NCBI RefSeq assembly: GCF_018531465.1 | Contig: NZ_JAHDTF010000006.1 | Span: forward strand, 1-64,000 | Source of the DNA: Sphaerisporangium fuscum | GTDB lineage: Bacteria > Actinomycetota > Actinomycetes > Streptosporangiales > Streptosporangiaceae | DNA: 64,000 bases | Reading direction: 5' to 3' | In this document: positions 1 to 49,214 of the stretch, one piece after another | How positions within the stretch are numbered: position 1 is the stretch's first letter | Layout of the letters: each line of letters begins with the position of its first letter | Program-made: the position numbers and the translations under genes | Notes under the pieces: generated by a model | Seen by the model: only the letters and a program-made list of their open reading frames with translations | Database searches by the model: none | What the model was told of the DNA's origin: nothing

Positions 1-129
1 ACCACGCGCGCAGAGGAACAAGACCCCGCGCATTCAGCCGAACCCAAGGGCTGAAACCATCCATGATGCGTGAAGACCTCTCGGTTCGGCCTGATGAACC
101 TTCAGTTCGCGTGAACTCTGAGAGATCTT

Positions 130-167
130 CGGGTGCCACCGGAATACGGCAGAAACGGGCCGCAGAC
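130..167 (+). repeat. Solitary Tn3-type terminal inverted repeat, family (i)
   Basis: A 38-bp stretch reading cGGGTGCCACCGGAATACGG and on through AGAAACGGG matches the ends of the 196-bp elements at 1658-1853 and 4559-4754 at about 30 of 38 positions; the outermost G is replaced by C. The outer end faces left. It lies 14 bp beyond the stop codon of the serine recombinase, where a Tn3-family transposon would have its end next to tnpR. No matching right end with the same outer flank was found, so the element that owned it is incomplete. Confidence 0.6.
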
Positions 168-181
168 TGCATGGCCGCAGC

Positions 182-763
182 TCAGCGTTGAGCCAGCGCC
201 TCGTACGCGGTAGAGCGACCGATCTTGAGCGTGCGGGCAGCCTCAGTGACCGAGGTGCCGTCGGCGACCAGCCGGCGCAGCGTGGCCAGCTCGGCGGGAC
301 CGATGACGCGGGGACGGCCGGTCTTCTTCTTGCCGGGCAGCATGGCACCGGTGGCTTCGCGGCGCTTGGCGGCGGCGATTCCCTCGGCCTGGCGCTCGGC
401 GCGCAGCTCCAGCTCGTACCCCACGGCCGCGGCCAGAACCGCGAACATGAACCGGCCCTCCTTGGTGCCCAGATCGAAGTTCTCCGTCAGCGACACCACG
501 GTAATGCCGCGGTCGCGCAGCTCGTTGACGGTGGTCAGCACGTGCCCCGCCGAGCGGCCCCAGCGGTCGGACTTCCAGAACTTCAGCGTGTCGCCCGCCT
601 GTGGCAGCGCCAAGAGCGCCTCCCATTCCGGTCGCGCGACACCGCGCTTGCCCGATTCCTTTTCCACGACCAGCTTGTCGTAGCCGCTGGCCGCCAAGGC
701 GTCGAGCTGGAGCTGCGGGTTCTGATCCCGCGTCGAGAGTCGTGCGTACGGCTCGCGCACCAT
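182..763 (-). pseudogene. Serine recombinase (TnpR/resolvase type), 5' end replaced
   Basis: Site-specific serine recombinase of the Tn3 resolvase type, about 190 residues. Visible parts are YARLSTRDQN with the catalytic Ser, the resolvase core (LKFWKSDRWGRS, TVVSLTENFDL, GRFMFAVLAAAVGYELELRAER) and a C-terminal helix-turn-helix (GRPRVIG, SVTEAARTLKIGRSTAYEAL). The first residues of the family (M-x-x-G before YAR) are missing. The only Met in place (complement of 761-763) lies in DNA that, on the other strand, codes for xanthine dehydrogenase, so the start is borrowed across a rearrangement joint near 745-750. The protein could still be made from this ATG, but it is safer to treat the gene as 5'-truncated. 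It belongs with the Tn3-type end at 130-167. Confidence 0.75.
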
Positions 764-1335
764 GTTCACCGTGGGCTCGGCCGTACTGCAGGCAGCTCGG
801 GAACTGCGCCGGACCGACGGAGGGCCGCTGAGCGTCGAAGGGCGGTTCGCGCCACGCCAGAGCGACCCCATCACGCCCGGTATCCCGCATGCCGCGTTCG
901 CCTCCTCCGCGCAGATCGTGCTCGTGGAAGTCGACACCCTGACCGGCGAGGTCGATGTCCTGCGCGTCGAGCACTACCTCGACGCGGGCCGCGTCATCGA
1001 CCGGGCGGGAGTCGAGGCTCAGTCGGAGGGCGCGATCGCCCAGGGCCTGGGACTCGCCCTGCTCGAAGATGCCATCATCGAGGACGGCGAGCCGCGCACC
1101 ACCAGGTTGTCGACCTACCTGATCCCGTCGGCGCTGGACGTCCCGGCCGACATCGTCACCTTCATCGTCGAAGAGCCCGAGCCGCTGAGCCCACTGGGCG
1201 TGCGCGGGATCGGCGAGATAGGCATCAGCGCCACGGCCGCCGCGGTCGCCAACGCGATCTATGACGCCCGTCGGCAGGAGATTCGCCCGCTTCCCCATCA
1301 CTCCGGAACAGGTACTGGAAGCTCTCAGCTCATGA
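745..1335 (+). pseudogene. Molybdenum hydroxylase large subunit, 3' fragment with frameshift
   Basis: C-terminal about 195 residues of the molybdopterin-binding subunit of the xanthine dehydrogenase/aldehyde oxidase family. Typical blocks are GRVIDRAGVEAQSEGAIAQG, TTRLSTYLIPSALDVP and GVRGIGEIGISATAAAVANA; the Glu of GIGE is the usual active-site base. The reading frame breaks after NAIYDA (about 1268). The expected C-terminus RFARFPITPEQVLEALSS with its TGA (1333-1335) continues in another frame from 1279, so a frameshift separates them. The 5' three quarters of the gene are gone, cut at the joint with the recombinase. The TGA overlaps the ATG of the next remnant (ATGA), the normal coupling in such operons. 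Confidence 0.8.
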
Positions 1336-1430
1336 CAGCCATCGAACTGACCATCAACGGCGCCGGCCACCAGGTGACCACCGACCCCCGCACGCTCCTG
1401 CTGCATGTCCTGCGGGAAGAACTGGGCCTT
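1332..1430 (+). pseudogene. 2Fe-2S subunit of molybdenum hydroxylase, N-terminal fragment
   Basis: Starts MTAIELTINGAGHQVTTDPR and runs through LLLHVLREELGL, the first third of the plant-type [2Fe-2S] domain of the small subunit of xanthine dehydrogenase-like enzymes. The family would continue with TGTKxGCDxxxCGAC, which binds the cluster. Here the sequence changes after GL (about 1428) and no cluster cysteines follow, so the gene is broken. It was translationally coupled to the large-subunit remnant through an ATGA overlap. Confidence 0.75.
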
Positions 1431-1501
1431 CCGGTAGCTCAGACGACCACCGACCATAACCGGGTGTGCCCCCAGGCCTCCAGCTATGACCTGTGCAAAT
1501 C

Positions 1502-1594
1502 TCCCGGCGACACACACCTGAACGAAAAGTCACGGTAAGCCACTCAACTCTCCTCTGCTAACGGGATTTTTCGTTCGGATGCTCGTCATGCCCC
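1502..1594. mobile_element. Pair of canonical Tn3-like ends facing each other (miniature element)
   Basis: The right arm, complement of 1557-1594, starts GGGGCATGACG and ends GAACGAAAAATCCCGTTAGC. It is 38 bp long and fits the Tn3 terminal repeat as I remember it at about 27 of 38 positions. The left arm (1502-1539) ends GAACGAAAAGTCACGGTAAG, 18 of 20 to the inner part of the Tn3 end, but its outer half is diverged and lacks GGGG. The arms are inverted with about 17 bp between them. No target-site duplication is visible. It could be a very small TIME-like derivative or two ends brought together by deletion. Confidence 0.5.
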
Positions 1595-1648
1595 GACAAC
1601 TACGGCACGCACAAGGCCCCGGCGATCAAGGCACGAACCCGAGTGGAG
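1595..1648 (+). pseudogene. IS630-type transposase fragment
   Basis: An 18-codon remnant, DNYGTHKAPAIKARTRVE, matches the DDE block of IS630-family transposases (LxLVxDNYxTHKxPxIKxWL), including the catalytic Asp of DNY. It starts directly after the outer GGGG of the Tn3-type end at 1594 and is cut on the right by the composite element at 1658. Nothing else of this transposase is left nearby on the same strand. Confidence 0.6.
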
Positions 1649-1657
1649 GGCCCTCTA

Positions 1658-1853
1658 GGGGTGCCACACGAATACGGCAGAAACGGGTCGCCGAGTCTCT
1701 GACCTGCGGCGTTGCGAGGCCAGCCGCTCGCCGCCCAGAAACGTACGCGTTCTCGGACGACGAGTTCACCTGCGCGAACGCCGTCCGAAAACCTGTGTCC
1801 GAGAGGTCCCTGCGGCTCGGCAGCCCATGTCAGCCGTATTCCGGTGGCACCCC
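1658..1853 (+). mobile_element. Tn3-derived miniature element (TIME), copy 1
   Basis: A non-coding 196-bp element. The left end is GGGGTGCCACACGAATACGG and the complement of the right end is GGGGTGCCACCGGAATACGG. Both can be followed for 38 bp, to ...GCCGAG, at about 30 of 38 matches. Length, GGGG start and 38-bp size are those of Tn3-family ends. It differs from copy 2 at one base (GGCACCCC here, GACACCCC there). The subterminal motif TCTCTGACCTG is also found inside the second group of Tn3-type ends in this window. Confidence 0.8.
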
Positions 1854-1899
1854 TTTTTGGGCTGTTGCCGGGATTGTGACGCCGAAATGATCTGCGGCC

Positions 1900-1980
1900 G
1901 TGAACCGATCCTCGTTGAACCCTGGGGACCTGGTTGAGCACTGGACGCTGGTCGGTGCCGAGCAGGACCTGGTCCCGGTC
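1900..1980 (+). pseudogene. Tn3-family transposase, N-terminal remnant
   Basis: From a GTG start the first residues read VNRSSLNPGDLVEHWTLVGA and then EQDLVPVKIG. This resembles the N-terminus of actinobacterial Tn3-family TnpA proteins (DUF4158 region, of the form xELVEHWTLxxxExxLVxxKxG). Similarity stops after about 27 residues, where the family continues with ATRLGFAxLLK. Just upstream (about 1857-1895) lies GC-rich sequence beginning GGGCTGTTGCC that could be the matching end, but I cannot confirm it. Confidence 0.45.
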
Positions 1981-2140
1981 AAGATCGGGCCCTTTACCCC
2001 GGGTACCGGGACTGTGGTCGGCGTGCCTGGTCTCGCCAGGCCTAGGCACGGCGTGCTGATGGCTGCGTCGTGGCGGCTCGGCGAAGCTCTCAGAGCAGGC
2101 CGGAACGGTTCCCGGCCGTCGTACAGAGAGAAGCAAGATC

Positions 2141-2995
2141 ATGAGTGTTTGGTTCGTTACCGGTTCCTCCCGCGGTTTCGGCCTGGAGATCGCCCGCGAG
2201 GCGCTGAACCGCGGCCACAAGGTCGTCGCCACCGCGCGCCGCTCGGACGGCATCCGCGACCTGCTGCCCGACGCGGGTGACCGGCTGCTCACCCTGGACC
2301 TGGACGTGACCGACGAAGCCCAGGCGAAGCGGGTGGTGGACGCCGCCGTCGCGCGGTTCGGCCGGATCGACGTCGTCGTCAACAATGCGGGTCGGGGTCT
2401 GCTCGGCGCCGTCGAAGAGGCCTCGGACCAGGCGGTGCGTGCCGCCTTCGACGTGAACGTCTTCGGCGCCCTGAACATCCAGCGCGCCGTCCTGCCGTAC
2501 CTGCGCGAGCAGCGCTCCGGGCACATCGTCAACATCAGTTCCGTGGCCGGCGTTGTCGGGTTGCCTGGCTGGGGCCTCTACAACGCGACCAAGTTCGCCA
2601 TGGAGGGCTTCAGCGAGGCCATGTCCCATGAGCTCGCCCCGCTCGGCGTCAAGGTCACCCTCATCGAGCCCGGCTACTTCCGGACCGACTTCCTCGACGT
2701 CTCCAGCCTGAGCACCGAGACCACGATCATCGATGACTACGCCGCCACCGCCGGCGCCACCCGCACCCACGCGCAGGGGGTGAATCACGCGCAGCTGGGT
2801 GACCCGGTCAAGGGCGCCAGGGCGATCGTCGACGTCACCGAGGTCACCGAGCCGCCGCTGCGCCTGGTCCTCGGCTCCGACGCCTACGGTTTCACTCAGG
2901 CGAAGCTCGACACCCAGATCGCCGAGCTGCACGCCTGGCGCAAGGTCTCCGAATCCACCGATCACGACGACCAGGTACAGGCCGGCCAGAACTGA
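2141..2995 (+). CDS. Short-chain dehydrogenase/reductase (SDR)
   Basis: Classical SDR of 284 residues, a cytosolic NAD(P)-dependent oxidoreductase of unknown substrate. The cofactor motif TGSSRGFG (7-14), NNAG (about 81-84) and the active site S-x12-Y-x3-K (ISSVAG ... YNATKFAMEGFSEAM) are all present. Length and the C-terminal substrate-binding half are normal. The ATG is preceded by GAGAGAAGCAAGATC, a usable ribosome site. It is the only intact gene inside the composite element at 1658-4754, so it may have arrived with it. No partner gene is coupled to it. Confidence 0.85.
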   Translation: MSVWFVTGSSRGFGLEIAREALNRGHKVVATARRSDGIRDLLPDAGDRLLTLDLDVTDEAQAKRVVDAAVARFGRIDVVVNNAGRGLLGAVEEASDQAVRAAFDVNVFGALNIQRAVLPYLREQRSGHIVNISSVAGVVGLPGWGLYNATKFAMEGFSEAMSHELAPLGVKVTLIEPGYFRTDFLDVSSLSTETTIIDDYAATAGATRTHAQGVNHAQLGDPVKGARAIVDVTEVTEPPLRLVLGSDAYGFTQAKLDTQIAELHAWRKVSESTDHDDQVQAGQN

Positions 2996-3129
2996 GCTCG
3001 GCATAGCCAGGGTTCAGTGCGCGGCGGCCAGGTCACCGGGGCCCGCCGCGCCGGACTCGGCGAGTATCGCCTCGATCTGGGCGGCGGTGGCGGGCCGGAC
3101 CCCTATTCGAGATTAAAAGCGTGGTGTCG

Positions 3130-3429
3130 TCAGGGTGGGGCGGGGACGAGTCCGGTGCCGAGGAGGCAGCCGTCGAGGACGTCGTGGCGGTATTGGAGTC
3201 GGCGTAGGCCTTGGCGGACGGTGGTGATCAGGTCGTTGGGATCGGTGAAGGCGCGGTTGGCCATGGTGGTGCGGCGCAGTATCGACCAGATGCTTTCCAC
3301 GGGGTTGAGGTCAGGGGCGTAGGTCGGGAGCTGGTAGACGGTGAGCCAGTCCCGTTCGGCGATGTAGCGGCGCATCCCGGCGGTCAGGTGGGTGTTGAGG
3401 TTGTCCCACACCAGGACGATTGGGCCGGC
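3130..3429 (-). pseudogene. IS630-type DDE transposase, C-terminal fragment
   Basis: The last about 100 residues of a DDE_3-type transposase: PIVLVWDNLNTHL with the second catalytic Asp, then DWLTVYQLPTYAPDLNPVES with the final Glu, and a helical tail QGLRRLQYRHDVLDG. The frame stays open upstream to 3639, but the residues before GPIVLVW do not look like this family, so the 5' part is lost or scrambled. The miniature element at 3578-3736 lies just upstream. The fragment cannot be a working transposase. Confidence 0.7.
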
Positions 3430-3577
3430 GCCTGCCTGCGCGCCGACGGCGCCCACCTGCAGCACAGCCTCGTGCGCGACGCCCTGGCCGCTGGACTTGA
3501 CCGGTGGGCCCTGGGAGAAGTGCCGGCCATGCACCCCCAAGCCGCAGTCGCCCGCCCTGTGCAGTACCACCACATGC

Positions 3578-3736
3578 GGGGTCCCGGTATTTTCGGCCGA
3601 AAATCCAACGAGCCTATCTCTGACCTGCACCGTCTCCACAGCAAGCCGGGGCGGGGGGCGTGCTGACCGTGCCTTGTGTGAAGAGCCAGGTTAGAGAAGG
3701 GTTCGTTGGATTTCCGCGATTGCCACCTGCACCCCC
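3578..3736. mobile_element. Second miniature Tn3-type element, family (ii) ends
   Basis: The left end reads GGGGTCCCGG and continues to ...AATCCAACGAGCC; the complement of the right end reads GGGGGTGCAGG to ...AATCCAACGAACC. Both blocks keep CCAACGA at the same distance (residues 28-34) from the outer G run and are followed by TCTCTGACCTG or TCTCTAACCTG. The unit is 159 bp and non-coding. Flanks are CATGC (left) and GAAGG (right), so there is no target duplication, which suggests later rearrangement. A third end of the same type is at 6555-6592. Confidence 0.55.
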
Positions 3737-4113
3737 GAAGGCAGAAGCGGCATATCAAGGGAGTTGAATAACCGCACTATGTAGAACCACGCGCTCAGCG
3801 CTTGGCCTGCTGGTCGGCCTCGCTGACGCGGGCGTCGGCCGCCCACCGCTGCGCCTTGCCGGTCACCTGCTCGATGAACTCAGCCTGTGTCAAGTGGCCG
3901 TGCGTCGCCCACACTCTTGCAGCTCATCCGACTGAGGGTCGAGGTTGGCGGCGCACAGCTCGGCGAGTGCGCCTGCCCGGCCCAGGCGCTGAACATCGGC
4001 TACGCGCCCGTGGCTAACTCTTCGCATATCGCCCAAGTGGCCTCAAGCCGGGGTGGCGGCTCGCCGTAGCTGTAGGAGGTCCAGGCGGGGTAGCGGCACG
4101 TCCGCTCAAGGTC
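3737..4113. other. Degraded sequence inside the composite element
   Basis: About 380 bp without an intact gene. On the minus strand a short open piece ending at about 3795 reads LTQAEFIEQVTGKAQRWAAD and then ARVSEADQQAKR before its stop. Farther upstream TCRYPAWTSYSYGEPPPRLE also reads like a real protein but ends in another frame. These may be pieces of one or two former genes. I do not recognise the family. Confidence 0.4.
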
Positions 4114-4558
4114 CTACTCGGGGCGCTTGGTCGTCAACTGGTCCTTGATCAGGCTGGCCAGCCGCTCCAGGTGCCCGGCCTGCACCTCGACCCGGTAGCG
4201 TGCCCCGGTCTGGTGCTGGATCTCCACAGACGCGACCACCGCCCCATCGCCGGTTGGGTAGGTGGCGCACAGCTGCTGCAGGAGATCGGCCAGGCGCTCG
4301 GCGTCCTGCGCGCCGCCCGGCGCGGCCAGGGGCACGGCGCTCGGAGAGAGCAGCGCATCGACCTCGGCCAGCAGCGTACGAACCGGGACCTTCAGGGGCG
4401 GGATGTCCGGGGAGCTCCACGGCCCCCCTCTCCCACTCGCCCCCGCCGGCGGCGATCGCCCGGTAGTCGTCGAACGCCTCCTCCGGGTCCAGGTCGATCT
4501 CGGCGAGGAACTCCGCGGTGCTCAGCCTGCGCAGCGCAAAGCGCGATGACCGCTCGTA
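4114..4558 (-). pseudogene. Hypothetical protein, truncated by TIME copy 2 and frameshifted
   Basis: Two reading frames join to one protein: RFALRRLSTAEFLAEIDLDP ... AFDDYRAI (upstream), then after one extra base IPPLKVPVRTLLAEVDALLS ... LADLLQQLCATYPTGDGAVV ... VEVQAGHLERLASLIKDQ. The frameshift lies near 4405. The 5' end is replaced by the miniature element: the apparent start MWHPY is written by the element's own terminus. The family is not recognised; the C-terminal part looks like a small soluble alpha/beta domain. Confidence 0.5.
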
Positions 4559-4754
4559 GGGGTGCCACACGAATACGGCAGAAACGGGTCGCCGAGTCTC
4601 TGACCTGCGGCGTTGCGAGGCCAGCCGCTCGCCGCCCAGAAACGTACGCGTTCTCGGACGACGAGTTCACCTGCGCGAACGCCGTCCGAAAACCTGTGTC
4701 CGAGAGGTCCCTGCGGCTCGGCAGCCCATGTCAGCCGTATTCCGGTGACACCCC
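4559..4754 (+). mobile_element. Tn3-derived miniature element (TIME), copy 2
   Basis: Same 196-bp sequence and orientation as the copy at 1658-1853, with one mismatch near the right end. Its inner flank is TCGTA and its outer flank CTCTA; the outer flank equals the left flank of copy 1. It interrupts the hypothetical gene on its left and abuts the stop codon of the tyrosine recombinase remnant on its right. Confidence 0.8.
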
Positions 4755-4756
4755 CT

Positions 4757-5595
4757 CTACGGCGCGTCATCAGATTGACTGGCGACGAGCTCACCTCGCT
4801 CCTCGTACTTGTTCTCGAGGTCGTACAGCGGGTGTCCGGTGAGCGCGGTGCGGCGCCGGTCGTAGCGCAGCGTGGTGTCCACCGAGGCGTGCAGGGCGAT
4901 GTCTTTGACCCGGTCGGCCGGAACGCCTTGCTCCAGCAGTTGGGTGAGCACGGTGGCGCGCAGCATGTGCGGGTGCAGGGCACGCGCCCGCTTCTTCGGG
5001 ACGCCGCCGGCGATCGCCGCCTGGGTGATCGCCGCGCTGACCCACCACCGGTCGACGGGCCGGCCGTCCTCCCGGCGGAATAGCAGTGCGCTCGCCGGCC
5101 GCCCGGCCCGCAGCGGCTGGAGCAGCTCGGCGGCGAGTTTCGGCACGGGCAGCGATTCGGTCTTGCCGCCCTTGTTGCGGAACCGGAGGGTGGTGTGCCG
5201 GGTGCCGTCGGCCTCGCGTGCGGTGCGGATGTGGCCGACGGTCAGCGCGGGCAGCGCGCCGATCCGGGTGCCGATGCTCGCGAGCAGGGCGACTGCCGCG
5301 GCCGCCGCTGGACGATGCCTGCGCGCAGCTGGTACTGCTCCTCGACGGTCAGTGCCTCGGTGGTGCCGTCGCGGGAGACCGCGGGCGGGCGGACGTCGAG
5401 CGCCGGGTTGTGCGTGAGCACCTTGCGGTGCCGGGCACGAGGACAGGATGTTGCGCTGTTTGGCCACGGTCGTGGCGCTCAGCGGCTTGCCCGGGGTGCG
5501 CACGCCGACGGTGAGCGTGCCGGTGGCGGCGGCGCGTCGCCGGTGTCGGAACCGGGCCGCGCCGGGTCGGGCTCAGCGGCCGAGTGCGGGCTCAT
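4757..5595 (-). pseudogene. Tyrosine recombinase (phage-type integrase), frameshifted
   Basis: The C-terminal catalytic domain is complete: Arg in SIGTRIGALPALTVGHI, Lys in FRNKGGKTESLPVPK, the HxxR box HPHMLRAT, His in IALHASVDTT and the nucleophile Tyr in TLRYD. In the N-terminal core-binding domain the frame is broken: SATTVAKQRNILSSC continues as ARHRKVLTHNPALDVRPPA in another frame, then returns. A likely start is the ATG at 5595 with GGGGTGAGCG before it. The stop TAG lies inside the CTCTA target site of the composite element. It is probably inactive through frameshifts. It may have belonged to a separate integrative element. Confidence 0.7.
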
Positions 5596-6457
5596 CGCTC
5601 ACCCCTGCTCGGTTGCGGCGGGCGACGGCGTCGGTTGCGGTGGCGAAGGTGACCGCGAGCAGGCGTCGCTGCGCCAGGAACCGGCGCCGCTCCCGCGGCA
5701 GCATCGACAGATCCAGCAGATGCGCGTCCATGGCGCGCAGGTACATCAGCTTGTCGATCGCTAACTTGATCGACGTCGGTGTCGCCTCCACCGCGGGCGT
5801 CGTCAGCCACGCCAGCCGGGTCGTTCCGATCTCCGGATCGTGCACCAGCAGCCGGTCTAAATCCGCCCGCATCGGCCCGGGCAACAGATGATCGACTTTC
5901 TCCGACGTCAACGCACCCGCCGCCTTACGCGCCGACCCGACCATCTTCATCAACACGACCACACCGGGCCTCACCACCTTCGAGCTGATCAGATGCTCGG
6001 CCGCCTGATGGAACAGCAGCGACGGCGTGTCATGCTCCATCGCCCGGTCAAGCAGGAACTGCCAGCTCCTTGAGCGTCTCGCCCCTGGTCGGAACCGGTT
6101 TCCAGCCCAGGTACTTCAGCACCAGCTTCAAATGATCGCTACGGGTTTGCGCCCGCAGTCCGTACTGCTCCAGGGCTCCCGGAAACACCGCCAGCTGGTT
6201 CGCCAGCCGCTGGACCGCCGCCTGCGGCACCGACCGGATGTCGTCCGGTACGCGAACCCCAGCCACGGCAACGTGCACAGCTGCACCGCCAACCCCAAGC
6301 GCGCCGCCGAACCCCGGCCCCCGCCCCGGCTTAAGTTGTCGATGAACCCCAGATCCTTCCGCGTCAACGTGAAGAACCTGACCAACTCCTCCCTGCCGAT
6401 GTCCGGATACGACCGAAGCCGCTCCATCTGCTCGTCGGAAAAGAACTGAACCGCCAA
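5573..6457 (-). pseudogene. Tn3-family transposase TnpA, N-terminal third, two frameshifts
   Basis: DUF4158-type N-terminus of a Tn3 TnpA: AVQFFSDEQMERLRSYPDIG, LVRFFTLTRKDLGFIDNLSR, SAARLGLAVQLCTLPWLGF. After a 2-base slip it continues VPDDIRSVPQAAVQRLANQL; after another slip QFLLDRAMEHDTPSLLFHQA and further to LSMLPRERRRFLAQ (about 5669). The family is about 1,000 residues long; everything after about 310 residues is missing and the frame ends in unrelated sequence over the recombinase start. The likely original start is TTG 6457, reading inward from the Tn3-type end at 6555-6592. Confidence 0.75.
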
Positions 6458-6554
6458 CGCCCACCAACCTCCACAACCGCACCGAAACCGTACGAACCGT
6501 AGTTGCAAAGATCGACAGGCGTTCCCTCAACTCAAATAACACCAGGTCAGAGGC

Positions 6555-6592
6555 GGGTTCGTTGGATTCTGCTCCGTTGCTGCCGGGACCCC
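6555..6592 (-). repeat. Tn3-type terminal inverted repeat, family (ii)
   Basis: The complement begins GGGGTCCCGGCAGCAACGGA and runs to AATCCAACGAACCC, 38 bp, followed by CCTCTGACCTGG. It shares GGGGTCCCGG, CGG at 17-19 and CCAACGA at 28-34 with the end at 3578. Its inner side faces the transposase remnant that begins about 100 bp away, the expected layout of a Tn3-family element. The outer flank is GTTCG. Confidence 0.6.
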
Positions 6593-6734
6593 GTTCGGTT
6601 GCTGCTCAAGCCCCGTCACCTGGTCGGCCTGCTCGGAATCGGTGTGCCCGATCCCGCGGGCACGCAGGCGCGAACGGGCACGCATCCGAATACGAAACCT
6701 GTGTTGCGTAATGCGTGAGGTGCCTGTAGCTTCT

Positions 6735-6758
6735 ATTTCGCTACTCCGGTACCGAAAT
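6735..6758. promoter_or_regulatory. Candidate TetR operator
   Basis: Imperfect palindrome ATTTCGCTAC-TCCG-GTACCGAAAT, 9 of 10 paired bases in each arm, ending 10 bp before the TetR start. Its size and place fit autoregulation of the TetR gene and its coupled cupin. Confidence 0.5.
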
Positions 6759-6768
6759 TGGAGGCATG

Positions 6769-7368
6769 ATGACACCCCGCGGACGCCCGCGTGACACGCA
6801 GGTGGACGAGCGTGTGCTGCGAATCGCCGCCGCCTTGATCTTCGAGCACGGCTACGCAGGCCTTTCCATCGATGAGGTGGCCGAGCAGGCGGGCGTGGCC
6901 AAGACCACGCTGTACCGCCGCTGGCCGACCAAGGATCACCTGGCCGTCGCGGTGGTGGCACGGCTGCAGGCCGACCACGAGATCACCGAGACCGGCGGCA
7001 TCCGAACCGACCTCGTCGACAATCTGGACAAGGTCGCCACCGCGCTCAACCGCATGCGCGCGGCAGGCGGCCGCGAAGGCCCCTCCGCGGGGGTCGCGGG
7101 CGAGCTCGTGGCGGCCGCAGCCAGGCACGAGGACATCGGCAAGCTGGCCCGTGAGCAGTACGCCGAGCGCAACGCCCTCGCGCTCGCCCTGATCGAGCGG
7201 GCACGCGTGCGCGGCGAGCTGCGCGCCGACGTGGACGCCGAAGCGCTCTTCGACCAGCTGGCCGGCGCCCTCTACTACCGAGTGCTGATCACAGGGGCGC
7301 CGGTCGACCGAGCCTACGTAGAACGGCTCGTGTCCTCCGCGCTCGAAGGGAGCCTGACATGTCGATGA
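6769..7368 (+). CDS. TetR-family transcriptional regulator
   Basis: About 200 residues. The N-terminal TetR helix-turn-helix is clear (AALIFEHGYAGLSIDEVAEQ, AGVAKTTLYRRWPTKDHLAV), followed by an all-helical ligand-binding domain of the TetR_C type. Two ATGs are adjacent (6766 and 6769); GGAGG at 6760-6764 is better placed for 6769. The last codons overlap the start of the cupin gene by 10 bp, so both are made from one message. It likely represses this operon through the palindrome just upstream. The ligand is unknown. Confidence 0.85.
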   Translation: MTPRGRPRDTQVDERVLRIAAALIFEHGYAGLSIDEVAEQAGVAKTTLYRRWPTKDHLAVAVVARLQADHEITETGGIRTDLVDNLDKVATALNRMRAAGGREGPSAGVAGELVAAAARHEDIGKLAREQYAERNALALALIERARVRGELRADVDAEALFDQLAGALYYRVLITGAPVDRAYVERLVSSALEGSLTCR

Positions 7369-41852: not shown

Positions 41853-42749
41853 GTGGACAACCGCAGCGAGATCCGTGAGTTCCTGACCTCCCGGCGTGCC
41901 AAGATCAGGCCGCAGCAGGCCGGGCTGCCCTCCTACGGCACCCGCCGGGTCCCCGGACTGCGCCGCGCCGAGGTCGCCCAGCTGGCGGGAGTGAGCGTGG
42001 AGTACTACTCCCGCCTGGAACGCGGCGACCTGTCAGGGGTCTCCGACCACGTCCTGGACGCTCTGGCCCGCGCGCTGCGGCTCAACGACGAAGAACGCAC
42101 CCACCTGGAGGACCTGGCCCGCGCCGCGAGCCCCGGCCCACGCCGCCGGCGCCGCCCCGCCTCCAGGCAGGTGCGGCCCCCGGTGCAGCGGCTGCTGGAC
42201 TCCATCACCGACGCGCCGGCCTTCGTCATGAACGGCCGCGGCGACATCCTGGCCACCAACATCCTCGGCCGTGCCCTGTACGCGCCCATGTTCGAGGCGG
42301 CCCGCGGCGCCATCCCCAACCACGCCCGGTTCATCTTCCTCGACCCCCGCTCCCACGGGTTCTGGGGCGACTGGGACCGCGCCGCCGACGACACCGTCGC
42401 ACTCCTGCACGCCCAGGCTGGCCGGGACCCCTACGACAAAGACCTCACCGACCTCATCGGCGAGCTGTCCACCCGCAGCGACGACTTCCGCGCCCGCTGG
42501 GCCCGCCATGATGTCCGCCAGCACCACCTCGGCAGCAAACCTTTCCACCACCCGGTGGTGGGCGATCTCCAGCTCACCTACGAATCCCTGGATCTGACCG
42601 CCGACGGCCTCACCCTGGTCGCCTACGGCACCGAACCCGGCGGCGACTCCGAGGACAAGCTCCGTCTCCTGGCCAGCTGGGCCGCCGCCGAGATCAGTGC
42701 CCCTCAGCCTTACGAAGCCGCCGGCGGTCGGCGATCCGACCAGGTCTGA
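41853..42749 (+). CDS. XRE-family regulator with MmyB-like ligand domain, copy 1
   Basis: 298 residues from GTG 41853. Helix-turn-helix: VPGLRRAEVAQLAGVSVEYY, SRLERGDLSGVSDHVLDALA. The C-terminal PAS-like MmyB domain has VQRLLDSITDAPAFVMNGRG, ILATNILGRALYAPMF, WARHDVRQHHLGSKPFHHPV, GDLQLTYESLDL. These proteins bind a fatty-acid-like ligand and control a neighbouring enzyme, here probably the divergent alcohol dehydrogenase. TAGCCT lies 7 bp before the GTG, so the message may be leaderless. Confidence 0.85.
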   Translation: MDNRSEIREFLTSRRAKIRPQQAGLPSYGTRRVPGLRRAEVAQLAGVSVEYYSRLERGDLSGVSDHVLDALARALRLNDEERTHLEDLARAASPGPRRRRRPASRQVRPPVQRLLDSITDAPAFVMNGRGDILATNILGRALYAPMFEAARGAIPNHARFIFLDPRSHGFWGDWDRAADDTVALLHAQAGRDPYDKDLTDLIGELSTRSDDFRARWARHDVRQHHLGSKPFHHPVVGDLQLTYESLDLTADGLTLVAYGTEPGGDSEDKLRLLASWAAAEISAPQPYEAAGGRRSDQV

Positions 42750-48110: not shown

Positions 48111-49004
48111 TCACGGGGCGCGCTGGTCCAGGACTTCCCTGGGCAGTGTCGCGTCGGTGGCGGCCCAGCTGGCCAGCAGCTTGAGGGCGTCTTCGTCGGG
48201 GGAGCCCGGTTCGGTGCTCATGGCCGTCAGGCTCAGGGAGGGCTGTGCGGGAAGTTGCATGGCGTCGAAGGTGAGGGTGAGGTCACCGACGATCGGGTGG
48301 CGGAAATGCTTCAGGCCGCTGTAGTGCAGGCGCACGTTGTGCCGGGCCCAAGCGGTGCGGAAGTCCGTGCTGCGGGTGACGAGCTCGCCGATGAGGTCGG
48401 TCAGGCCCTTGTCGTGGGGGGTGCGGCCTGCCTCGGTGCGCAGGAGCGCGACGGTGTTGTTCATCGATTCCTCCCAGTTGCGGCTGAAGAACTCGCGGCC
48501 CCGGGGGTCGAGGAACTTGAACCGGGCCATGTTCACCGGCGGCTTCCGCCCGTCGTGGAACATGGGCGCGTACAGGGCATAGCCGAGCCGGTTGGCGGCG
48601 AGGAGGTCCAGGCGGCTGTTGCGGACGAACGCGGGCGCGTCGGTCATGGAGTCGAGGATCCGCTGCACGCTGGGCGGGATCTGTGTCTGCTGGGGTACGC
48701 GACGGCGTCGTTGGGGTGTGGTGTTGGCGGCGCGGGCCAGATCGTTGAGGTGGTCGCGTTCGGCCTCGTCGAGTTGCAGGGCGCGGGCGAGGGAGTCGAG
48801 GACCGCCTCGGAGACGCCGGTGAGGTTGCCGCGTTCCAGGCGGACGTAGTAGTCGACGCTCATGCCGGCGAGCATGGCGACCTCCTCGCGGCGCAGGCCG
48901 AGGACGCGGCGGTTGCCGCCGTAGGCCGGGAGGCCGGCTTGCTGCGGGGTGATCCTGGCCCGGCGTGAGGCCAGGAACTCCTTGATCTCGTTCCTGCTGT
49001 CCAC
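48111..49004 (-). CDS. XRE-family regulator with MmyB-like ligand domain, copy 2
   Basis: 297 residues from GTG 49004. Paralogue of the gene at 41853: SRNEIKEFLASRRARITPQQ, RVLGLRREEVAMLAGMSVDY, YVRLERGNLTGVSEAVLDSL, SVQRILDSMTDAPAFVRNSR, HNVRLHYSGLKHFRHPIVGD. The 18 bp with its -10 box are identical to those of copy 1. It faces an efflux pump gene at 49215, its likely target. Confidence 0.85.
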   Translation of the reverse strand: MDSRNEIKEFLASRRARITPQQAGLPAYGGNRRVLGLRREEVAMLAGMSVDYYVRLERGNLTGVSEAVLDSLARALQLDEAERDHLNDLARAANTTPQRRRRVPQQTQIPPSVQRILDSMTDAPAFVRNSRLDLLAANRLGYALYAPMFHDGRKPPVNMARFKFLDPRGREFFSRNWEESMNNTVALLRTEAGRTPHDKGLTDLIGELVTRSTDFRTAWARHNVRLHYSGLKHFRHPIVGDLTLTFDAMQLPAQPSLSLTAMSTEPGSPDEDALKLLASWAATDATLPREVLDQRAP

Positions 49005-49214
49005 GTTCCCCAGGCTAGGCGGCCCGTGCAAAAGCTGGGGGGTACTGCCGTTACCTGGAACGGCTCTACCTTCCCCACCCGGGTGACCAGCGGTTTCATC
49101 GGATGCAGGCCGGTGGGAGCGCCGCCGGCGCGGCGACCCGTCTTCGGTGTCGTCGCCGCGCCGCGATCGGCCCCCGGCCCCCTGACCCGTCCCCTCACCC
49201 GTTGGGAGAACTTC

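Follow-up and report, generated by a model that had tools for sequence, protein, structure and literature searches.

An apparent composite transposon without a transposase in Sphaerisporangium fuscum, framed by two Tn3-derived miniature elements with a res-like core

How does an ordinary metabolic gene come to lie between two direct copies of a short non-coding element, with a target-site repeat outside the pair and none around either copy? This arrangement is found at positions 1653-4759 of the first 64,000 nucleotides of contig NZ_JAHDTF010000006.1 of Sphaerisporangium fuscum, a stretch of DNA referred to as the window. Judged from sequence, the segment 1658-4754 is a TIME-COMP, that is, a composite transposon without a transposase, bounded by two direct 196-bp Tn3-derived inverted-repeat miniature elements (TIMEs). 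The 196-bp element is short, has no tnpA and carries inverted ends of about 38 bp in common with a Tn3-family transposon, which is how a TIME is defined, and the TIME-COMP layout of two TIMEs with a passenger and repeats at the outermost flanks only is present as well. The simplest reading of its origin is composite transposition in one step, to which a probability of about 0.62 is assigned.

Borders, flanks and relatives

The unit is delimited by the following features:

1653..1657, no strand: left copy of the target-site repeat CTCTA
1658..1853, + strand: TIME copy A, 196 bp, with 38-bp imperfect inverted ends
1854..1858, no strand: TTTTT, the inner flank of A, without a partner on A's left
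4554..4558, no strand: TCGTA, the inner flank of B
4559..4754, + strand: TIME copy B, 196 bp, with one difference from A
4755..4759, no strand: right copy of the target-site repeat CTCTA, overlapping the stop codon of a recombinase remnant
130..167, + strand: a third TIME-type end, outside the unit

Copies A and B lie in direct orientation and are identical at 195/196 positions, the sole difference, at position 190, where A has G and B has A, falling within the right-hand end. In copy A, the left and right 38-bp Tn3-type ends agree at 31/38 positions. The unit proper is 3,097 bp long, and the interval 1653-4759 adds both CTCTA flanks, which are the only matching 5-bp pair: the inner flanks, TTTTT beside A and TCGTA beside B, are unpaired, and neither copy has a repeat of its own (CTCTA/TTTTT for A, TCGTA/CTCTA for B). 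Random 5-mers in the window agree with a frequency of 0.0024, or about 0.0098 across the four flank pairings. A preliminary description of this DNA had reported two same-orientation 196-bp copies with 38-bp Tn3-type ends and one mismatch, a CTCTA duplication at the outermost flanks only with unpaired inner flanks, and an intact SDR gene with debris between the elements, all of which was confirmed. The third TIME-type end, absent from that description, adjoins the resolvase gene at 185-763.

The passenger and the right flank hold the following:

1859..1982, + strand: passenger DNA, 90% identical to a TIME-free edge in genome G263, the similarity starting at A's edge
2141..2995, + strand: SDR-family oxidoreductase of 284 aa, intact frame (Pfam adh_short, 5.4e-54)
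3130..3639, - strand: DDE_3 transposase remnant
4114..4558, - strand: gene cut by TIME B, frame-shifted, with an uncut homologue in genome G216
4757..5503, - strand: tyrosine recombinase remnant of the right flank, frame-shifted relative to its G005 homologue (Phage_integrase, 1.8e-15)
5573..6540, - strand: broken N-terminal pieces of a Tn3-type transposase (DUF4158)

The interior therefore consists of the intact SDR frame, the DDE_3 transposase remnant and other debris. On B's side, the G216 homologue of the cut gene (82%) can be aligned as far as the final base of TCGTA and continues uncut, with no TIME; the remainder of the cut gene was not found within window positions 1-7000. On A's side, about 125 bases match G263 at 90%, with TTTGA replacing TTTTT, and G263 carries a TIME of its own about 1.9 kb from this stretch. 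From these two comparisons, both inner edges look like real insertion edges into other DNA. No donor copy was found elsewhere in the same genome among the matches listed. A second copy of the SDR gene's final 291 bases lies at C55:3170-3460, about 95% identical and fused to unrelated sequence.

Relatives of the TIME were sought in 297 genomes of the same family, with two candidates scored per genome, so that the counts are lower bounds. The TIME query matches 57/297 genomes, most of the listed matches covering the ends only, and at least 15 places in 12 other family genomes cover at least 118 of the 196 bases at 74-91% identity. A relative with 84% identity lies on contig C21 of the same genome, and this copy and the 15 family places were aligned as 16 relatives; the alignment stops short of both ends in several of them (G015, G130, G183a, G217b), and some ends are damaged. 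An order-wide search matched 65/345 genomes, all of the same family among the matches listed, the share of other families among the 345 not being given. Named records matching the TIME numbered 0 in the plasmid collection and 0 in phages.

Target-site repeats at such ends were surveyed by scanning loci for facing ends of TIME type within 8 kb (L058 and L060 left out). An exact 5-bp repeat was found in 4/24 pairs and a repeat with exactly one mismatch in 0, with about 0.06 exact repeats expected; the pairs are non-independent, five being end combinations within the window and three within L130. Besides the present unit and the TIME of G217, the exact repeats belong to two further elements, one of 1,426 bp in G150 (TTTTG) and one of 1,113 bp in the same-genus genome G007 (CGGAC). 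TIME-type ends therefore do generate 5-bp repeats, although lone TIMEs mostly lack them, an exact repeat being present in two of the 16 relatives (G217, CATCA; G079, CACCA).

A candidate helper for the movement of such elements is found in the same genome. The 6,094-bp transposon at C48:36305-42398 has both ends and encodes a 1,036-aa TnpA without stops, which covers 160/165 positions of DUF4158 and 388/389 positions of DDE_Tnp_Tn3. The TIME ends resemble the ends of this transposon at 91% over 33 bp and 93% over 29 bp, and the transposase that moved the unit may have been of the C48 type. A stretch of about 98-128 bases is common to window 1-128, C48:42399-42527 and C21:1-98; it stands immediately before three different Tn3-type ends, and each of the three contigs terminates with it, which would fit a repeated element placed exactly beside Tn3-type ends.

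A res-like core and its resolvase lineage

Each TIME copy carries a core of two res-like subsites, and a resolvase gene lies to the left of the unit:

1733..1758, + strand: res-like subsite I of copy A, inverted half-sites
1783..1809, + strand: res-like subsite II of copy A, two direct half-sites
4634..4659, + strand: res-like subsite I of copy B
4684..4710, + strand: res-like subsite II of copy B
185..763, - strand: serine resolvase gene tnpR; the TIMEs resemble the res of genes of this kind

Subsite I is a 26-bp inverted repeat and is followed by the two directly repeated half-sites of subsite II. The distance between the subsite starts is 50 bp in 10 of the 12 TIME copies in which both were recognised, and 52 and 63 bp in the other two. 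The left half-site of subsite I reads GCCC in copy A, as in G217; among 11 relatives with a recognisable subsite I, it reads GTCC in eight and GTTC in two. Conservation over 16 rows (winB and G015 are left out of the table) is alike at the ends and inside, and for this reason conservation alone cannot single out a res. The element had been described as short non-coding DNA, which holds for its non-coding, Tn3-derived nature but misses the res-like site that it carries.

The subsite-I pattern, with up to three mismatches, was found in 32/297 family genomes, and the reversed-pattern control gave 0 in each. Thirty subsite-I loci were examined for TIME-type ends and for relatives of the tnpR gene at 185-763. 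A TIME-type end lies within 250 bp in 11/30; among the remaining 19, seven have a tnpR relative whose alignment starts 34-44 bp away (six at 92, 93, 91, 85, 74 and 73% identity, the seventh a broken copy whose pieces match at 67-85%), and one has a tnpR relative 779 bp away. G230 has one more such place, where subsite I lies 35 bp from a broken copy of tnpR whose pieces match at 88-92%. Since the loci had been chosen by subsite I, subsite II and the spacer, which had not been used in choosing them, were tested separately upstream of seven tnpR genes (L184, L187-L192). Shuffled sequences as good as the real ones numbered 0/5,000 in L187, L188, L189 and L191, and 1, 8 and 185 of 5,000 in L190, L192 and L184, respectively. 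With L184 set aside, the six remaining loci score 25-36, against 10-18 for sequence 200 bp further upstream. When subsite I was included, 6/7 loci beat all 2,000 shuffles, the exception being L184 (13/2,000). The subsite order of the TIME is thus also found upstream of tnpR in L187-L192, more weakly in L190 and L192, while L184 has no significant subsite II. A strict subsite-II pattern gave 0 matches in the genome contig collection, although this pattern may be too strict or the relevant genomes may lie outside that collection.

These comparisons suggest that the TIME core is a two-subsite res like that directly upstream of the tnpR relatives of 185-763, with a Sin-like layout and a predicted function in resolution. 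A role as a site for the C48 tyrosine recombinase was rejected, as the C48 transposon has no match to subsite I or II. In L141, L143-L145, L148, L149, L151, L159, L161, L162 and L167, the subsite-I match has no TIME-type end within 250 bp and no related resolvase gene in the 3-kb locus; some of these matches are near-perfect palindromes.

The resolvase encoded in the window starts with MVREP and its relatives with MTVWA, MTIWA or MTVGA, so that the first five codons differ. The sequence beyond this start is a gene fragment with a molybdopterin-binding domain, 98% identical to G268, and the res expected there is therefore gone. The end of the resolvase gene lies about 53 bp from the outer base of a TIME-type end in four places, namely the window, C52 and G230 (both with a broken gene) and G015 (with the last part of the gene). 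At L137 (G015:C43), positions 5125-6369 form a 1,245-bp element with both TIME-type ends, a res and the last part of the resolvase gene, and with no 5-bp repeat. On the strength of the four places and the G015 element, the TIME has the appearance of a pared-down relative of a transposon with the order end, resolvase, res. The L137 element resembles the TIME-RES type. Retention of the tnpR 3′-end in the left arm of the TIME was unsupported, as 238/3,000 shuffles were as good against the window tnpR, and 325, 941 and 2,646 of 3,000 against three other tnpR genes.

Origin of the unit

In a one-step composite transposition, two TIMEs would first have inserted elsewhere, A next to TTTTT and B at TCGTA within a gene. 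Acting in trans, a Tn3-type transposase such as that of the C48 transposon would then have taken A's left end and B's right end as its borders and copied the whole segment into the transposon debris beside the tyrosine recombinase gene, with duplication of CTCTA. The two-subsite res in each TIME would render cointegrates resolvable by a matching serine resolvase. The same resolvase should delete a passenger lying between two direct res sites, and the unit may persist through the altered start of the local resolvase together with the changed GCCC half-site. We infer a single event of this kind because one step explains all the flanks. The choice between one-step insertion and the integration of a circle rests on parsimony, and the res reading does not decide between them.

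Several points weigh against this account. The GCCC half-site is shared by the TIME of G217, whose 5-bp repeat is clean, so that GCCC need not be damage. Eleven of the 19 subsite-I loci without a TIME-type end also lack a related tnpR nearby, and subsite II is unsupported in G230 (185/5,000 shuffles as good). The C48 transposon is not flanked by a 5-bp repeat (TCGAG/CTGAT), and its recombinase is of the tyrosine rather than the serine type. Exact 5-bp repeats are missing from 14/16 related TIMEs, which means either that TIMEs here often acquire new flanks in some other way or that they are old. The preliminary description had named recurrence of the TIME without 5-bp duplications as evidence against its own reading, and such recurrence is in part what is seen, but the relatives have diverged and some of their ends are damaged. 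An empty site with a single CTCTA, which the preliminary description had proposed to look for in relatives, was not found: a 31-mer of the joined flanks gave 0 exact matches in the genome contig collection, and separate flank searches in the 297 genomes, with two candidates scored in each, yielded no genome with long matches to both flanks among the matches listed. In these searches, the right-flank recombinase matched G005 (86%) and G001 (83%), and the left-flank fragment 748-1431 matched G268 (98%), again among the matches listed. Finally, the window begins at a contig end in an assembly of 93 contigs with 6.95% estimated contamination, and the 196-bp repeats could have been mis-threaded.

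A longer route leads to the same sequence and is a serious, though clearly less probable, alternative. A lone TIME would have inserted and duplicated CTCTA, and a circle carrying the passenger and one TIME, formed by recombination between two direct TIMEs elsewhere, would then have integrated into the resident TIME by homologous recombination over 196 bp. Integration of such a circle yields the same outer and inner flanks and an identical sequence throughout, the direct orientation and near-identity of the copies fit it, and so does the scarcity of exact repeats among the related TIMEs. The same route has been proposed for two direct-repeat MITESen1 TIME-COMPs for which there are plasmids that carry a single TIME at that position (PMC13367494). 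It requires a resident TIME, a circle and a crossover rather than one event, and neither a lone TIME at this place nor a genome matching both flanks was found among the matches listed. The preliminary claim that the two elements moved the segment jointly is therefore upheld in that the flanks are as one composite insertion predicts, and is not secured as direct evidence, since the circle route gives the same sequence.

Two unrelated TIME insertions whose outer flanks match by chance, or a mis-assembly, would be an improbable explanation. The chance of a match is about 0.01 over the four pairings, and the assembly is a draft with the contamination given above; against this, no repeat flanks either copy by itself, and the gene at B is interrupted, its remainder not being found in window 1-7000. 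Least probable of all is a role for a serine resolvase, either in joining the circle through res sites to a TIME already in place or in exchanging passengers among TIMEs in some other way: each TIME has a res-like site laid out as upstream of related tnpR genes, and a related tnpR lies 0.9 kb to the left of A, but resolvases strongly favour deletion over joining separate molecules, the start of the local tnpR is altered and subsite I is changed in both copies.

Beyond the single locus, TIMEs might conceivably serve as docking sites for exchangeable passengers, since each has transposon ends by which it could be copied and a putative res at which it could be cut, a transposase placing the framed gene, a resolvase excising a circle and the circle entering another TIME. 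This idea is speculative and rather unlikely; if true, the family would possess a widespread cassette system that is small and needs no integrase.

Related systems and surrounding DNA

TIME-COMPs were described in 2014, when their transposition was demonstrated with a trap plasmid and the authors guessed that TIMEs may hold res sites (PMC4133298). As described there, TIME-COMP1 and TIME-COMP2 of Pseudomonas resemble the present unit in consisting of two Tn3-derived miniature elements and a passenger (2,469 and 3,892 bp), with outermost 5-bp repeats and no transposase of their own, and TIME-COMP2 is likewise a direct repeat. They differ in that their TIMEs are 262 bp long and of another sequence, and in that transposition was shown and res sites were guessed in that account (PMC4133298). 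In Enterobacteriaceae, the TIME-COMPs of TIME244, IS101, MITESen1 and IMU measure 1.3-11.4 kb and mostly have outer repeats of 5-6 bp, though not those of IMU (PMC13367494). According to the same 2026 source, a putative Tn21-like res was found in TIME244 and IS101 holds a functional res, which is a likeness to the present TIMEs, whereas the Enterobacteriaceae units carry resistance genes and lie on plasmids. The TIME244 res resembles that of Tn21 at three subsites, in contrast to the two subsites with a direct-repeat subsite II predicted here, and direct TIME-COMPs with a working res are argued to be unstable (PMC13367494). The layout is that of Sin and its site resH, which comprises subsite I and a head-to-tail subsite II in 86 bp, compared with about 80 bp here; Sin acts with a DNA-bending protein (PMC2428073), and the present likeness is one of site layout.

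The best named matches of the C48 TnpA, among those listed, are on actinobacterial plasmids. The foremost is in the Tn3 region of the Saccharopolyspora pogona plasmid NZ_CP031144.1 (67.8%), which has similar ends beside it; these differ at 5-6/20 core positions, and no subsite I (up to six mismatches) was found in the stretch examined. No actinobacterial TIME or TIME-COMP was found in the open-access literature among the matches listed. The unit thus seems to be a new TIME-COMP example in a further bacterial group, with a putative two-subsite res. It would extend TIME-COMPs to that group and add a family of TIMEs in which a res can be recognised, together with a related lineage of resolvases. 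With a candidate helper transposon named in the same genome, both steps of movement become testable. The unit also suggests that the cargo framed and carried by non-coding stubs can be an ordinary metabolic gene and need not be a resistance gene.

Ends of a second type occur at window 3603-3716 and 6543-6593 and at C64:8197-8256, and resemble a stretch near another Tn3 transposase on C64. The first of these, 3603-3716, lies within the passenger and has the look of a further miniature element, about 114 bp long. To the left of the unit, the roughly 110 bases at window 1486-1596 recur with 81-91% identity in at least a dozen family genomes and on contig C37 of the same genome. Far to the right, window 41853-42749 and 48111-49024 hold similar genes in opposite orientation (75-83% DNA identity in pieces) that are regulator-like by eye, and between them lie genes that, from their translations, we take to be excinuclease-A-like and epimerase-like.

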